Shown in pieces: positions 2,157 through 16,425 of a stretch of 27,815 nucleotides of DNA. The stretch is taken from the IMG/VR virus record IMGVR_UViG_3300025889_000753, positions 1 through 27,815 of that record; one strand, 5' to 3'. A program made the position numbers and the translations under genes. This stretch comes from a virus. Position 1 is the stretch's first letter. Each line of letters begins with the position of its first letter. A model generated the notes under the pieces. It made no database searches and was not told where the DNA came from. It saw only the letters and a list, made by a program, of their open reading frames with translations.

Positions 2157-4169
2157 ATGACGATTTCGACTGTCGCTAATTCAGTGACCTACACTGGCAA
2201 CGGGTCTGCTGCAACTTTCGCATTTCCTTTTAAGATACTCGACGCGGATCATCTAGTCGTTCAGCGCTTGCTTGCAGCTGATGACTCAGTTGATCATACT
2301 TATATCGGGACTGAGATCACGGTCTCCGGAGTAGGCGCTGCGAGTGGTAGCGTGACGATCAACGCCGGCGCACCTTCATCCACATATAAGATTAAAATAA
2401 CCCGCATCGTCCCGTATACACAAGAGGCGGACCTGCTAAATCAGGGCGGCTACTATCCGGAGACGATTGAGGACCAGCTTGACCTTATGGTCATGATGGC
2501 ACAGCAGCTGGCGAACACCGGCGGTGATGAGGCCTGGGCATTGGAAGCGCAACAGGCGGCGGCTGATGCAGAAGCGTTCGCGGCCTCATCCCAAACCTTC
2601 GCGACCAACTCCTCAAACTCCGCAACGGCGTCAGCGGCCTCGGCAGTTGCTGCGGCTGCGGCACAGGCTGATGCGGAGACTGCGGCCTCGGCAGCAACGA
2701 CTAACGCTGACCGTATCTATCCCGACACAGCGACTGCACTAGCCGCGCTGGCTGAGGGCGATTACTTTTGGGTAGAGAATGCTGATGATGACCTACAACT
2801 CTATCGCGAGGTAGGCGGTGTTGCGGTCGCACAGGACTTTGCGATGCCGAATGTTGGCCGGGTTGCTGCGGCCGAAATAGCACATGAGCGTTATACTGGA
2901 CCGTTCAGAGAGGCGCCTACCGACACGTACATGAGAGACATTATTGAGGATATGTATATCGAGGGAGGTGATCCCGGCCATGATTATATCTTCAATTATG
3001 AGACACAGGACCTCGGCTCAGGAAATGCGCGTGTCACCTTCAAGATTACTGACGTAACCCTTGGCATTGACAGCTGCCAGTGGAGGGTGGTCGATACGCA
3101 GGCCAATTTCCTAGCGCGCACATCGCCGACCGTTGTGGCATTTCAGGACGTTTTGGCGGGCTATACGGGCACCACGGCGACGATATGGGTGAATTGGGCC
3201 GCGTTGGTCTTTGGGGGCGGCATCACCGGCTATACGACCGTTGCTCAATCCGGTATCCGCAATGACCGGGTTATCTCCCGCGAGGAGATCATGGAGCGGT
3301 TCAAGGCCGGGGCGGAACCGAAGATCGTGCTCACCGTCGGGACCGGCTCACCGACTGCTACGCACTTCAACAGTCGTGCAGACGCTATTGCTAGCCTCTA
3401 CATTCCAGGCCTCACGGTTACACGCTCAGGTCCGTTCCCGCTATCGGACATTTGCTCCTTCTCGAACCAAGTGTTGATCCTCGATGTGGATGATGCGATT
3501 GATGAGGAGTCCGTGCTGGTTAGTCCGGGAGGAATTGACCAATCAGAAGTTGTTCTTCCCCCTTTCATCACATTGCGAGGAAAGGATATGCTTCTGTCTC
3601 GGCAGTATGCTGATGGAGGAGCAAACACTGGACCAGTAATTGAGGCGCCGTTTCCTTTCCGCATCGAGAACATGACGATTGAAAACCTCGGTCCCGGCTA
3701 TGCAGTCCATATTGACAACGTGAATGATCGAGCAAAACGGGCGGACGTTGGACCAGCAGTTCTGCGCTATCCAATGGTCTCAGTTATGAAGAAGGCAGTA
3801 CTTGAAGGAAGTGCTGCTTCTACTAGCTGGACCATTGGCACCGGCCTGTCGAACGGACAGCTGTTGCGTGTTGAGGAAAGCCGAGTTATCGGTGGGGCGG
3901 AACAGCCTCAACTCGGTGTCCACACTTCACCGACTACTACGGATGCAGGCGATATTGAGGCTATCGACACCTACTTCAACGACGCTGTTATTGGTAGTGC
4001 GGTGCAGCTTGTTAAGAGCCACGCGATGACTGTGCAGCATCGAGTGAACATTAAGGGTAGCACCCTTAGTAATATTAGCGTCAGCAATACTGGAGGCGGT
4101 TCCGCCGGGTTCCGTCGGGTCGGTAAGATAGACTCCACTATTACCATTAGCGGCACCCTGGATACGTAG
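2157..4169 (+). CDS. Tail fibre protein with T7-type N-terminal attachment domain
   Basis: 670 residues. Residues about 1-125 match the T7 tail-fibre N-terminal domain pattern: a TYTGNGSAATFAFPFKI start, beta-rich repeats, then GGYYPETIEDQLDLMVMMAQQL. This domain attaches fibres to podovirus tails. Residues about 125-180 are an Ala/Ser-rich heptad region, typical of a trimeric coiled-coil shaft. The rest is beta-rich without recognisable enzyme motifs and should carry the receptor-binding tip. The start has an excellent AAGGAGG site six bases upstream. It lies 54 bases after the virion protein and before the lysis genes, the usual podovirus order. No tail chaperone or intramolecular protease motif was seen at the end. 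Confidence 0.9.
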   Translation: MTISTVANSVTYTGNGSAATFAFPFKILDADHLVVQRLLAADDSVDHTYIGTEITVSGVGAASGSVTINAGAPSSTYKIKITRIVPYTQEADLLNQGGYYPETIEDQLDLMVMMAQQLANTGGDEAWALEAQQAAADAEAFAASSQTFATNSSNSATASAASAVAAAAAQADAETAASAATTNADRIYPDTATALAALAEGDYFWVENADDDLQLYREVGGVAVAQDFAMPNVGRVAAAEIAHERYTGPFREAPTDTYMRDIIEDMYIEGGDPGHDYIFNYETQDLGSGNARVTFKITDVTLGIDSCQWRVVDTQANFLARTSPTVVAFQDVLAGYTGTTATIWVNWAALVFGGGITGYTTVAQSGIRNDRVISREEIMERFKAGAEPKIVLTVGTGSPTATHFNSRADAIASLYIPGLTVTRSGPFPLSDICSFSNQVLILDVDDAIDEESVLVSPGGIDQSEVVLPPFITLRGKDMLLSRQYADGGANTGPVIEAPFPFRIENMTIENLGPGYAVHIDNVNDRAKRADVGPAVLRYPMVSVMKKAVLEGSAASTSWTIGTGLSNGQLLRVEESRVIGGAEQPQLGVHTSPTTTDAGDIEAIDTYFNDAVIGSAVQLVKSHAMTVQHRVNIKGSTLSNISVSNTGGGSAGFRRVGKIDSTITISGTLDT

Positions 4170-12973: not shown

Positions 12974-13117
12974 TTATTTGCTAAGTGCTGTCTTAACAGC
13001 ACACATAGCGTTGGCCGCGTTGCAAGCTGCCTGAGAAAACCGCAACGCATCCTCCGATTTCTCAGAGGCTGCTGCCTTGTTAATCAGGGTTTCAACTTCT
13101 TTGCTCTTGTCAGTCAT
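12974..13117 (-). CDS. 47-residue helical peptide, short gene found by eye
   Basis: The frame runs from an ATG preceded by GGAG about ten bases upstream to TAA at 12974-12976. The product is Ala/Lys-rich and helical (EVETLINKAAASEKSEDALRFSQ-type pattern), with two cysteines and no membrane segment. It fills a gap that would otherwise be empty between two genes of the same strand. A hairpin follows the upstream gene at 13138-13169. The start coordinate could be off by one base because it was counted by hand; the codon count (48 with stop) is consistent. Confidence 0.6.
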   Translation of the reverse strand: MTDKSKEVETLINKAAASEKSEDALRFSQAACNAANAMCAVKTALSK

Positions 13118-13137
13118 CGGGTTCTAACTCCGAATGT

Positions 13138-13169
13138 GCTCACGTATCGGAAAGGAGCAGAGCGTGAGC
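13138..13169 (-). terminator. Hairpin between candidate SSB gene and 47-residue gene
   Basis: A seven-pair stem, GCTCACG paired with CGTGAGC, encloses an 18-base loop. An alternative six-pair stem (GCAGAG with CTCTGC) overlaps it on the right. Neither is followed by a T run on the - strand, so this could be a weak or Rho-assisted stop, an mRNA end protector, or chance. Confidence 0.35.
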
Positions 13170-13180
13170 GGCCTCTGCTA

Positions 13181-13642
13181 TTATTCGACCGGCGCGGTTC
13201 GACCGATCTCGGCGTTGAAGGTTTCGCCGGACTCATCACGCTTGTCCTGCTTCCACTTCACGTCACCGAGGAACTCGGCGTTCACCGCAGCGTTGAGCAT
13301 CTCCGCAACGGTCATGCCAGCCTCCGCACAGCGCAGGTGCTTCTCGCAGAACTGACGCAGGTTGAACAGCGTCGTCTCGAAAGCGGCCTCATCCTGCGTG
13401 TCGAACACGAACGACTTCGACAGCATGATGTTGCTGATCTCGCCGGGATAGTCGCCGATCTCAACATTATCCATGGCCTCAACGACCTTCACCGGGAAGC
13501 GGAGGAACTCCCACTTCTCGTCCTGCGACTTTGTGCTCTCGGGCACCTTGGTAACGCGAAAGCGATACGTGCCGACCGGCGGAAGCGGGGGACGCTCGAC
13601 TTCCTCGATACGCTTCGACGCAATGTCATTAAAATTGGGCAT
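13181..13642 (-). CDS. Candidate ssDNA-binding or recombination-partner protein
   Basis: 153 residues from the ATG at 13642, which overlaps the TAA of the short ATPase-tail copy as TAATG. The N-terminal region has VGTYRFRVTKV and a later strand pattern (FLRFPVKVVEAMDN), compatible with an OB-like beta fold, then a helical C-terminus with two cysteines. Proteins of this size and make-up are often encoded directly after Sak4-like ATPases in phages and serve as single-strand-binding partners. No catalytic motif was seen. The function is inferred from context and general shape; a single-strand annealing or a structural role is possible. Confidence 0.6.
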   Translation of the reverse strand: MPNFNDIASKRIEEVERPPLPPVGTYRFRVTKVPESTKSQDEKWEFLRFPVKVVEAMDNVEIGDYPGEISNIMLSKSFVFDTQDEAAFETTLFNLRQFCEKHLRCAEAGMTVAEMLNAAVNAEFLGDVKWKQDKRDESGETFNAEIGRTAPVE

Positions 13643-13761
13643 TAGCTTTGTCCTTTCAGTGTGGCAAAGATAGTAGACAGACCTGTTTCGAGCGGCAGCT
13701 CTTTCTCGACCGTGGATGATGGCATCTTCAGGTCGATAACTCCGGTAGGCAAGGTCTTGAT
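13642..13761 (-). repeat. Direct repeat, downstream copy of the ATPase gene 3' end
   Basis: This 120-base segment is the partner of 14225-14344. The two copies agree at about 77 percent of bases but 87 percent of encoded residues, and the differences are mostly at third codon positions. That is more divergence than a recent tandem duplication would give. Confidence 0.85.
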
Positions 13762-13776
13762 AGCCTCCGAAAACAT
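13642..13776 (-). pseudogene. Detached second copy of the Sak4-like ATPase C-terminus
   Basis: A 44-codon frame. Its last 39 residues match residues 217-255 of the ATPase encoded at 14225-14992 at 34 of 39 positions; by hand count the 120 bases agree at about 92. The first five residues (MFSEA) have no match there. AAGGAG lies nine bases before its ATG, inside the last codons of the endonuclease gene, so a peptide could be made. Its TAA overlaps the ATG of the next gene as TAATG, exactly as the intact ATPase TAA overlaps the endonuclease ATG. The simplest reading is that this is the original 3' end left in place when an endonuclease gene arrived with its own replacement tail. Confidence 0.85.
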
Positions 13777-13781
13777 TATAA

Positions 13782-14225
13782 CTAACTCCTTGGAATAAGA
13801 CTTTTGGTTGAGATAGCTTTCTCTGGAAGCCAATTTCGAGATAGTCTGTAGTGAAGTGTTGGGTAGGCAACCTTACACCGTTCGTCTTCTGCCCACTCTT
13901 TGAGAGTTTTAGTCTCACCGAAGGCGGTAATCTTAACAGTGTTCCTTCGATTATTTACACTGACTGAATGTGTCACCCAACGGCAGTTGCTTGGCTCATA
14001 ATTGCCGTTGTTATTTTCTCTGTCCAAGAGGAGGCCACGACGATAGCCATTTTCTTTGGCCCACTTTTGAAATATACCAAAGCTCTCATTCCATTCAGGA
14101 CATACAGTGACACCTCGCCCACCGTAGTCAGAGAAATCTCCTTTATTATGATCAGAGCAGCGCCGTCGCATACTGTCCCAAACATACCAAAGTGGAGTTC
14201 TAGTTCCTCCATGCCGCTCGTACAT
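13782..14225 (-). CDS. Homing-endonuclease-type protein (HNH-like, NCRW family)
   Basis: 147 residues. The order of motifs is that of a common phage endonuclease family: TPLWYVWDSMRRRC at 10-23, YGGRGVTVCPEWNESFGIF near 34-52, LLLDRENNNGNYEPSNCRWVT near 65-85, then a DNA-recognition tail with GETKTLKEWAEDER and a final YRLSRNWLPEKAI. The LDR-N-GNY-NCRW core corresponds to a degenerate HNH site. It starts on the TAATG shared with the ATPase stop and ends six bases before the detached ATPase tail. AT content is visibly higher than in neighbours. A free-standing homing endonuclease is the best call; cleavage activity is not proven by the sequence. Confidence 0.82.
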   Translation of the reverse strand: MYERHGGTRTPLWYVWDSMRRRCSDHNKGDFSDYGGRGVTVCPEWNESFGIFQKWAKENGYRRGLLLDRENNNGNYEPSNCRWVTHSVSVNNRRNTVKITAFGETKTLKEWAEDERCKVAYPTLHYRLSRNWLPEKAISTKSLIPRS

Positions 14226-14344
14226 TAGATTTGACCTTTGAGCTGAGCAAAGATTGTAGACAAACCAGTCTCTAACGGTAACTCTTTTTCTACATTAGAG
14301 GTTGGCATCTTCAGGTCGATTACTCCTGTGGGCATAGTCTTAAT
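14225..14344 (-). repeat. Direct repeat, ATPase-fused copy of the 3' end
   Basis: The last 39 codons and stop of the Sak4-like gene; partner of 13642-13761. Both copies end in TAATG, where the G belongs to the next start codon. Confidence 0.85.
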
Positions 14345-14992
14345 TCTGCGTCTGACATTCGTGCCGGACCCGGAGGCCTCGGCGAGAACGAGTGTGTCGA
14401 AATAACTCGCGACGGTTGGACCGAGCGCGCTGCCGACAGCGGATGGGTAGCCTTTGTGAACGCCTTCCATCACCTCCTTGTAGTTGACGTGGGAGATAAC
14501 GATGACGTTCTGCTTGTACGCCTCGCTAGTGAGCAGCGCGAGCACTGACTCAACGGCCTGTTGTGCAGCATAGAACCACTGGCGAGGGTCTTTCGCGGTT
14601 GGGTTCATTCCCTTCGCCCATGCCCAAGCAGCTTTGCCTAGAAAGGTTAGTGAGTCGATGACCGTGATGCACATAGGGTCTTCGATCTCGGACCACTCGG
14701 TCAGCTTACCCATGGCGTCGGAAAAGGCTTTCGGTGCTCCCTTTACCATCGGCCCCTGCGGGGTGATGCGATACTGGTCACGGTAGGTTTCGTACTCGAT
14801 CTTGGATAGATCAGCGCCGGCGGTTCGACCGAATTGCTTCAACGCGGTGAGGCCGTTGTCCATGTCCAAGATACGCATACTGTAGCCGTCGGCAAGTAGC
14901 GCAGCTAGGGAGCCGGTCTTACCTGACGAGCTATCGCCTATGTACAAAATCTTCGTATAGGCTGACGATGCGTGATTATCTAATGTTGGCAT
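14225..14992 (-). CDS. Sak4-like RecA-fold recombination ATPase
   Basis: 255 residues from the ATG at 14992. Walker A is GDSSSGKTG at 19-27, Walker B is CITVIDS with Asp113, and VIVISHVNY at 163-171 matches the following strand of RecA-like folds. This is the pattern of phage nucleotide-binding proteins of the Sak4 type, which act in single-strand annealing recombination. The start has GGAG followed by TTGCAAA, a variant of the early start motif; the longer frame to 15112 would lie over the upstream endonuclease gene. The C-terminal 39 residues have a second copy at 13642-13761. Upstream nuclease and downstream candidate SSB support a recombination module. Confidence 0.85.
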   Translation of the reverse strand: MPTLDNHASSAYTKILYIGDSSSGKTGSLAALLADGYSMRILDMDNGLTALKQFGRTAGADLSKIEYETYRDQYRITPQGPMVKGAPKAFSDAMGKLTEWSEIEDPMCITVIDSLTFLGKAAWAWAKGMNPTAKDPRQWFYAAQQAVESVLALLTSEAYKQNVIVISHVNYKEVMEGVHKGYPSAVGSALGPTVASYFDTLVLAEASGSGTNVRRRIKTMPTGVIDLKMPTSNVEKELPLETGLSTIFAQLKGQI

Positions 14993-15482
14993 TTTGCAAC
15001 TCCATTGATTTGTGAAGAGCGAATTCACCTTGATATTTTTCAGCTGCTTGGCGATAAGCCTCTGCAGCCTCTTCCATAGTTGCGTAAGAACCAATAGGTA
15101 TCTTTCGACCATTGATCCTTATGCGAGCTGACCAAGGCTTGCTTCGACGAGCATCGGCTTTGAACACTACTCCTTTTGGATACTTACCAAAGCCGACCTT
15201 GTTGAACTGGTTCTGTTGGTGGGTCGCCTGTCTAAGGTTCTTAATCTTTGTGTTTCGCTTGTCACCGTCACGATGATCGACTAAGCAGTCTGGCCAATAT
15301 CCGTAATAAAGTGCCCATATTAAATGGGTGATAATGTAAGGTATGCCCTCATAGGAAGTCTTATGACGACCAGCTTCGATTGGACCTAAAACAGCGTTCT
15401 TAGTCCACTTAATCCTAGTCAAAATCCCTGTAACAGGATCGTAACTAAATGCTGTTCTCAGTTCTTCAATAGAGTGCTTCAT
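14976..15482 (-). CDS. HNH homing endonuclease with AP2 DNA-binding domain
   Basis: 168 residues. An HNH core lies at about 85-115 (CLVDHRDGDKRNTKIKNLRQ, then ATHQQNQFN), followed by an AP2/ERF-like domain at about 122-160 (GVVFKADARRSKPWSARI, INGRKIPIGSYATMEEAAEAY). This is one of the commonest homing endonuclease designs in phages. It begins 11 bases after the nuclease stop and its last codons overlap the start of the Sak4-like gene by 17 bases, covering that gene's ribosome site. Base composition is AT-rich compared with neighbours. It seems to be an insertion between two recombination genes. Confidence 0.92.
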   Translation of the reverse strand: MKHSIEELRTAFSYDPVTGILTRIKWTKNAVLGPIEAGRHKTSYEGIPYIITHLIWALYYGYWPDCLVDHRDGDKRNTKIKNLRQATHQQNQFNKVGFGKYPKGVVFKADARRSKPWSARIRINGRKIPIGSYATMEEAAEAYRQAAEKYQGEFALHKSMELQNANIR

Positions 15483-15492
15483 AAAACGTTCC

Positions 15493-16425
15493 TCAGCGCG
15501 GTTCCATGGGGTCCCACCGCTTACCCTTTACGAAGTCACCTTTCAGAAACTGCTCCCGCACACTAGGCGCCTTCGAGCAGATGTGACGGAACTCGCACCC
15601 ACCGTACTGACTGCACGATGACGGGTTCAACGGAAACTCGTTGTTACGAGTTGCCTCACGAGCGCGCTCGATATGATACATGCTGTGGTCATACCACTCG
15701 TTGAGCTGGTCGTCGGTTCGGAATGTGAACCCGCGCTCGAAACGAGTAAAGCCGACAGCGATCTGCGCAGCGTCGATCATCACGCCTTTGATCGGTAAGC
15801 CGAATATAGACTTGCCCGCGAAGGTGTACATGGACATTTGACTGTCCGGGTTGTAGCCGTCGAAGTAGCGCGACGTAATTGTGGACTGCGTAGTCTTTTG
15901 ATCTTGGATATATTCGTGCTTACCGTATTCGACAAGCCGATCGAGGTGGCCACATAAGATAATGCCGTTGTCGGCTTCGAGGCGAAATGAATGCTCGACA
16001 GCGGGCTGGCCGTTAGATAATATGACTGTCTGGCAGGAGTCATCCTCACCGAACTGGTCGATGTACCAGACGATCGTGCGGATTAGATTCTCGCGGGTCT
16101 TGGTGTTGTGGTCGGATTGCCACGGCGAGCCGGTGTCGGAGATAGGTTCGCCGGCTTCATCCAGCTCGAACTCCCACGTCTCCACGAGCGCCTCGCTCAC
16201 GACCTCGATGAGCGCCTCGTCCTGCGACATTCCGTCAGCTGTGTACTTGTAGTAGCTCTCGAGAGCGGTTGCATACCAGCCGCCGAACAGCAGGTGCACG
16301 GACTTGCGCTCCGGCTGCCACCCAAAGATCATTTTGAGCTGGTACTTGCGGAGACAAGTCTCGGCTAGTTTGAGGGAGGTTGAGTCCCAGGCGAATTGTA
16401 CGCCGTCGGCGTCGAAGGATTTCAT
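15493..16425 (-). CDS. RecB/Cas4-type PD-(D/E)XK nuclease with Fe-S cysteines
   Basis: 310 residues from the ATG at 16425, which follows AGGAGTTGCA; the longer frame to 16575 lacks such a site. Nuclease motifs are Glu144 (AVEHSF), Asp162 (CGHLD) and Asp175-x-Lys177 (QDQKTT). One cysteine at 24 (AETCLRKY) and three at 271, 277 and 283 (CSQYGGCEFRHIC) match the 4Fe-4S arrangement of AddB/Cas4-like nucleases. Such proteins act as DNA exonucleases in phage recombination and replication. There is no cas1/cas2 or CRISPR array nearby, so a CRISPR role is not supported. It is followed by the Sak4-like ATPase, separated only by the AP2-HNH gene. Confidence 0.87.
   Translation of the reverse strand: MKSFDADGVQFAWDSTSLKLAETCLRKYQLKMIFGWQPERKSVHLLFGGWYATALESYYKYTADGMSQDEALIEVVSEALVETWEFELDEAGEPISDTGSPWQSDHNTKTRENLIRTIVWYIDQFGEDDSCQTVILSNGQPAVEHSFRLEADNGIILCGHLDRLVEYGKHEYIQDQKTTQSTITSRYFDGYNPDSQMSMYTFAGKSIFGLPIKGVMIDAAQIAVGFTRFERGFTFRTDDQLNEWYDHSMYHIERAREATRNNEFPLNPSSCSQYGGCEFRHICSKAPSVREQFLKGDFVKGKRWDPMEPR

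Follow-up and report, generated by a model that had tools for sequence, protein, structure and literature searches.

An HNH endonuclease gene between two versions of a phage sak4 gene end: probable replacement of target-gene ends by homing-type genes

Gene organization of the sak4 locus

The window, by which we mean the whole stretch of DNA analysed, is a 27,815-base viral record from IMG/VR (IMGVR_UViG_3300025889_000753). The genes of its sak4 region all lie on the minus strand, and an HNH endonuclease gene among them is flanked by two versions of the sak4 3' end, an anatomy that is strongly established. The features are listed below in the direction of transcription, with L003 denoting the nearest relative found.

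Upstream of the HNH/AP2 gene, minus strand: PD-(D/E)XK exonuclease gene, heading the gene run
15482-14976, minus strand: second HNH gene (HNH_3 + AP2; PF13392 1.3e-13, AP2 1.1e-5)
14992-14225, minus strand: complete gene for a Sak4-like RecA-fold ATPase (PF13479 AAA_24 5.8e-12, PHROG 124 1.1e-11)
14992-14345, minus strand: sak4 body, probably native, the 5' part of a chimera with the attached tail
14344-14225, minus strand: attached tail, codons 217-255 plus stop (G+C 0.40-0.41), placed outside the pair of detached tail and L003
14225-13782, minus strand: HNH endonuclease gene, 147 aa (PHROG 3377 2.7e-46; no match in Pfam)
13791-13786, minus strand: AAGGAG ribosome-binding site for the ATG at 13776, within the 3' end of the HNH gene (direct reading)
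13776-13642, minus strand: short ORF made up of five codons and the second sak4 tail
13776-13762, minus strand: ATG TTT TCG GAG GCT (MFSEA), in frame before the detached tail
13761-13642, minus strand: detached tail, putatively the original sak4 3' end (34/39 residues as in the attached tail; sister to the L003 tail)
13642-13181, minus strand: next gene, 153 aa, function unassigned, with homologues in relatives

The earlier note had described the ATPase as complete, and the Pfam and PHROG matches bear this out. The PHROG 124 match, together with fold matches to RecA/RAD51, places the protein in the Sak4 family. In the AlphaFold model (mean pLDDT 92.3), codon 217, where the two tail versions begin, falls within strand 214-218, and the tail contributes strand 237-239 and helix 243-251, the final helix. 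Because codon 217 lies in a core strand, a plain insertion there would destroy the protein, and the model indicates that a Sak4 cut short at this codon should be ruined.

The start of the HNH gene overlaps the Sak4 stop as TAATG, and the stop of the detached tail overlaps the start of the next gene in the same way. The HNH gene ends in ...CCAAGGAGTTAG, followed by TTATA-ATG, so that the AAGGAG serves the ATG of the detached ORF, the new start that the earlier note had recognized. AAAGGA, the likely ribosome-binding site of the next gene, sits within the detached tail. The next gene has no match in Pfam or PHROG; in relatives its homologues come right after sak4, or past a short gap.

An Rfam search of 13100-15600, in which a group I intron was sought, gave no match at E up to 1; therefore no known intron or riboswitch is present in this interval. 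An intein, with the endonuclease fused in frame to the host protein, is ruled out by the fact that Sak4 ends in its own stop codon.

The second HNH gene, which overlaps the sak4 start and sits between the exonuclease gene and sak4, has no part in the tail replacement discussed below. Its presence means that sak4 in the window is bracketed by two endonuclease genes, and HNH genes of the HNH_3 + AP2 type also occupy the exonuclease-sak4 junction in three other contigs (L171, L118 and L161). The first 20 codons of sak4 (14992-14930) are low in G+C, at 0.40, climbing to about 0.6, as if the upstream HNH gene had brought in a short sak4 5' end.

Comparison of the two tails

The last 39 codons of sak4 and the tail of the short ORF agree in 34 of 39 residues and in 90 of 117 bases, or 92 of 120 with the stop codon included; the hand counts in the earlier note were exact. 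Differences are mostly silent, as had also been observed there (17 of the 21 differing codons, from the 38 codons before the last). A tblastn search with Sak4 against its own record returned two places, the second being 13761-13642 (6.9e-17, 85% identity over 40 residues); the recovery of the second copy at this value excludes a chance likeness of the tails.

Base composition differs along the locus, with G+C of 0.56 in the sak4 body, 0.40-0.41 in the attached tail, 0.45 in the HNH gene and 0.50 in the detached tail, the last being intermediate between the HNH gene and the body. The attached end differs from the empty allele at 26 of 108 bases.

Sak4 relatives and the native tail

Two scans of viral contigs yielded about 80 Sak4 relatives, about 75 of them with a complete 3' end. 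The earlier note had reasoned that replacement would be contradicted by uninterrupted relatives carrying both tails, and none of these 75 or so has two tails. A scan of genome contigs for Sak4 relatives gave no match, and the sole match in a tblastn search of INPHARED with Sak4 was in Caulobacter phage Kuura, at 30% identity. The nearest relative, L003, with 89% protein identity, has an uninterrupted sak4 with one tail and no HNH gene. An HNH gene of the window's kind had no match in the records of 11 of 12 relatives, the exception being L097, where it occupies the same junction. The window gene carries the HNH domain of a free-standing homing endonuclease gene (the PHROG 3377 match), is inserted beside a conserved gene and missing from close relatives, and lies between a full-length sak4 and a fragment of its end, which is the layout of target-gene end replacement. 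A donor phage with exactly this attached tail was not found among the relatives scanned.

Two further contigs deserve mention. That of the close relative L004 (IMGVR_UViG_3300045391_002865) ends at Sak4 codon 213, a few codons short of the replaced tail, a break which might fit a population mixed for the endonuclease there. Lactobacillus phage phiadh (NC_000896, 1315-2549), a Firmicutes phage, has an HNH gene of this family directly after its annotated Sak4 gene, and no tail duplication was recognised in its HNH region.

A tail tree was built by maximum likelihood from 17 tails and 108 nt, with bootstrap/SH-aLRT as branch support. The detached tail is sister to the L003 tail (94/82), with the attached tail outside this pair and the trio united at 96/96; the Sak4 bodies of the window and L003 are likewise sisters (100/100). 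A tree constrained to unite the window tails is worse by 2.24 log units and is not rejected by the AU test over these 108 nt (p 0.19); when the tails were compared with L003 site by site, a sign test gave 13 versus 6, which is not significant (p 0.17). Because the AU test spares the tails-as-sisters arrangement, the support that the tree gives for the direction of replacement is moderate. Identity to L003 is 78% for the body, 94/120 (78%) for the detached tail and 87/120 (73%) for the attached tail.

These data also bear on local duplication, in which insertion of the HNH gene would have doubled 120 bases at the 3' end of sak4, with divergence of the copies afterwards. The AU result leaves the window tails as possible sisters, and at the protein level they share 35 of 40 positions, stop included, versus 33 of 40 for each with L003. 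However, the tails differ from one another (28/120 bases) as much as the detached tail differs from L003 (26/120), so the duplication would have to be older than the divergence from L003, a relative with a single tail and no HNH gene. The best tree, moreover, unites the detached tail with L003, the G+C of the attached tail follows that of the HNH gene, and in six more loci (below) it is again the attached copy that has the lower G+C. We therefore regard local duplication as unlikely. The proposal of the earlier note, that the fused tail came with the endonuclease and the old tail was left behind, gains moderate support from the tree, the G+C content and the six parallel loci, and the tail alignment that it had suggested as a check came out in its favour at the same level. 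Sequence comparison points, with moderate support, to a native detached tail and a foreign attached tail.

A free-standing form of the endonuclease gene

L097/L098 is the only relative with an HNH gene at the sak4 3' junction. There the gene lies exactly between sak4 and the next gene, with a TAATG joint and one tail only, the second tail being absent; this looks like the ordinary free-standing form. The HNH protein of L097 is 51% identical to that of the window, and in L097 an AAGGA precedes the ATG of the next gene with the same spacing as the AAGGAG-ATG of the window.

The five codons that precede the detached tail occupy the position where the next gene starts in L097; homologues of this gene have F-x-[acidic/small]-[I/A/V] starts, with which MFSEA agrees. 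Since L097/L098 has the HNH gene at this junction without any duplication, ATG TTT TCG GAG GCT probably represents the start and first five codons of the donor's next gene; the earlier note had called the five residues unrelated, which is probably incorrect.

Gene ends duplicated around other HNH genes

We surveyed about 190 distinct loci of related HNH genes, including 18 regions from sequenced phages, by comparing the flanks of each HNH gene for repeated coding sequence. Besides the window, six loci have an HNH gene flanked by two versions of one gene end:

L014: portal gene, 3' end, anchored score 56
L253: gene of unknown function, 3' end, unanchored score 69, outside the strict end rule
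L023: ERCC4 nuclease gene, 5' end, 15 codons, anchored score 64
L056: SSB gene, 5' end, 17 codons, anchored score 46
L234: VRR-NUC gene, 5' end, 15 codons, unanchored score 74, outside the strict end rule
L318: holin gene, 5' end, 23 codons, unanchored score 84, found after the anchored test

In the anchored test the alignment must reach the gene end, and the null consisted of 1,200 cross-pairings of loci; this test was adopted because shared endonuclease domains inflated the unanchored null. For 3' ends, cross-pairings scored at most 43, compared with 170 for the window and 56 for L014. For 5' ends they reached at most 47, this value being SSB against SSB, while L023 scored 64 and L056 scored 46; the anchored scores of L056 and L014 are modest. 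None of the 18 regions from sequenced phages showed a recognisable tail duplication.

In all seven loci, the copy attached to the gene has a lower G+C than the stranded one (two-sided p 0.016), and this holds in 6/6 when the window is left out (p 0.03). The G+C of the attached copy is closer to that of the HNH gene than to that of the body everywhere except in L253 (six of seven), and the G+C of the stranded copy is closer to that of the body everywhere except in the window (six of seven). This pattern across seven loci suggests that the attached ends probably came along with the endonuclease gene. In the six loci other than the window, which come without an uninterrupted close relative, the call of native and foreign copy is made from G+C alone; a blastn search of INPHARED for HNH-free relatives of L056, L023, L014 and L234 found no close one, the matches being mostly to HNH genes or unrelated. 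Taken as they stand, the loci look like a recurring route by which HNH genes enter essential phage genes and leave them unbroken.

Several other candidates from the survey were set aside: L183 and L191 as neighbouring endonuclease paralogues, L067 and L188 for their resemblance to an intron or repeated non-coding sequence, L199 as an exact repeat of endonuclease-like sequence, L290 because paralogous small genes flank its HNH gene, and L319 because its repeat comprises a terminator and ribosome-binding site without a coding copy. The HNH gene of this last locus has, on each side, a version of a terminator hairpin with a ribosome-binding site (about 2600-2700 and 3426-3490), possibly a non-coding counterpart of the gene-end duplications. 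Two irregularities were seen among the retained loci. In L234, the VRR-NUC gene after the HNH gene is frame-disrupted just past the replaced 5' end (about 1640-1660), or misassembled. In L014, a TGA (about 2886) interrupts an HNH frame that is continuous elsewhere, at a position where a sense codon seems to stand in relatives; either the stop arose by mutation or this phage translates TGA as an amino acid.

Discussion

We consider it likely that a homing-type HNH gene entered the end of sak4 and brought with it a working but diverged substitute for the final 39 codons. The donor would have had the layout of L097/L098, with an ordinary HNH gene standing free between sak4 and the gene that follows. 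The enzyme would have cut an empty sak4 near codon 217, in the core strand, and the left end of the break would then have copied the donor tail, the HNH gene and the first five codons of the donor's next gene. Shortly after the HNH gene, the copied strand would have been connected with the right end of the recipient rather than crossing over further downstream, a one-sided step suggested by the geometry of the locus and the resemblance of the five codons. The product would be a whole chimeric sak4, with the native tail stranded; we propose that it is resistant because the target site is both split and re-coded, and that the next gene would still be translated because the new ATG and AAGGAG lead ribosomes through the old tail to the TAATG. 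The old tail may now act as a right homology arm in further homing, as has been proposed for the WHO elements of yeast.

The WHO elements at FBA1 in Torulaspora and Lachancea (eLife 2020), for which resistant and sensitive alleles were shown by cleavage tests, offer the closest anatomy (PMC7282813). In both systems the endonuclease gene lies between a full-length gene and a 3'-end fragment. In WHO elements the full-length gene is a chimera of recipient 5' and donor 3' ends and the fragment is the recipient's old end, as is probable in the phage, and the end replacement re-codes the target gene and gives resistance. WHO elements are LAGLIDADG + zinc finger genes on nuclear chromosomes, whereas the present case involves an HNH enzyme and phage DNA; membership in the WHO family proper is accordingly rejected, since that family requires LAGLIDADG plus zinc finger and the best family matches here are HNH. 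WHO fragments, in addition, need not stay open, while the phage fragment has acquired a new start and is coupled to the next gene, and the 5'-end mirror cases among the phage HNH loci are a further difference.

The final anatomy predicted by the WHO model is the same as that observed, and a two-arm cycle of this type, in which the donor already had the HNH gene plus a sak4 fragment and the body and fragment served as homology arms without one-sided joining at this locus, is a variant of our explanation that is compatible with its main claim. The anatomy would be identical, so that one locus cannot separate the two. Yet the sole relative with an HNH gene at this junction (L097/L098) has no fragment, and some such joining event would be needed once anyway to form the cassette; we regard the cycle as a serious possibility at somewhat under even odds.

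Ordinary mosaic recombination between two phages, perhaps through Sak4 itself, would make the endonuclease a passive neighbour. Sak-type annealing proteins recombine diverged sequences (PMC5499656, PMC5928155), and HNH cutting at this locus is a predicted activity. Gene-end pairs, however, flank HNH genes in seven loci, versus none in about 75 sak4 relatives, and mosaic recombination appears rather unlikely. An assembly chimera of two co-occurring phage populations might likewise be suspected, given that the locus is known from a single metagenome contig and that the L004 contig breaks a few codons before this junction. Both gene joints are nevertheless tidy TAATG overlaps, the geometry of ribosome-binding site and start is as in L097, and the arrangement recurs in unrelated contigs, all of which makes a chimera highly improbable.

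The comparison with fungal mitochondria drawn in the earlier note was apt, with the nuclear WHO elements as an additional parallel. In the sections of PMC3630166 on mORFs with C-terminal duplications (Allomyces atp6; Glomus atp6, atp9, cox2 and nad3), an endonuclease ORF lies between an acquired, diverged C-terminus on the gene and the native C-terminus behind it, and the native one resembles a close relative while the attached one does not. These mORFs differ in that they encode LAGLIDADG or GIY-YIG enzymes, reside in organelle DNA and frequently share the phase of the gene; all the cases in those sections are 3' ends, whereas the phage loci include 5' ends as well.

Among phages, the free-standing homing endonucleases SegA-G and MobE of T4-like phages sit between conserved genes, cut the neighbouring gene of relatives without them and co-convert the flanks, homing being repair from both flanks, as outlined in parts of a T4 review (PMC2988022). 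They differ from the present case in that the relevant parts of that review describe no stranded target-gene end, the stem 'duplicat' being absent from it. Together with a phage HEG survey (PMC10448857), the same review (PMC2988022) treats co-conversion, HEGs near essential genes and HEG islands in the portions concerned; stranded gene ends do not occur in the passages of either source matched by keyword. The earlier note gave the arrangement as not known to be a described strategy for phage recombination genes, and in the open-access literature searched we found no description of end replacement by phage endonucleases. End replacement is known from yeast WHO elements and fungal mORFs; the phage form appears to be a variant of it, with moderate statistical support for its direction.

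Homing endonucleases of phages are usually described as intron-borne or intergenic. The HNH gene described here appears to invade coding sequence with neither intron nor intein, bringing a replacement for the part that it severs, and its target, sak4, itself encodes a recombinase. The finding links phage HEGs, fungal mORFs and yeast WHO elements in a convergence over different enzyme families and three genetic systems, adds a mirror form at gene starts and accounts for some of the chimeric gene ends and stray fragments in phages; the enzyme/target pairs now identified are open to direct assay. A broader reading, to which we give an even chance, is that phage HNH genes are repeated natural "home and rescue" drives, each with a re-coded 3' or 5' end of its target. 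If this is true, invasion would swap the gene end, the gene would work on and resist cutting, and the old end would be left stranded; HEGs would then have a general, convergent way into coding sequence that needs neither intron nor intein, and phages would have a source of chimeric gene ends.
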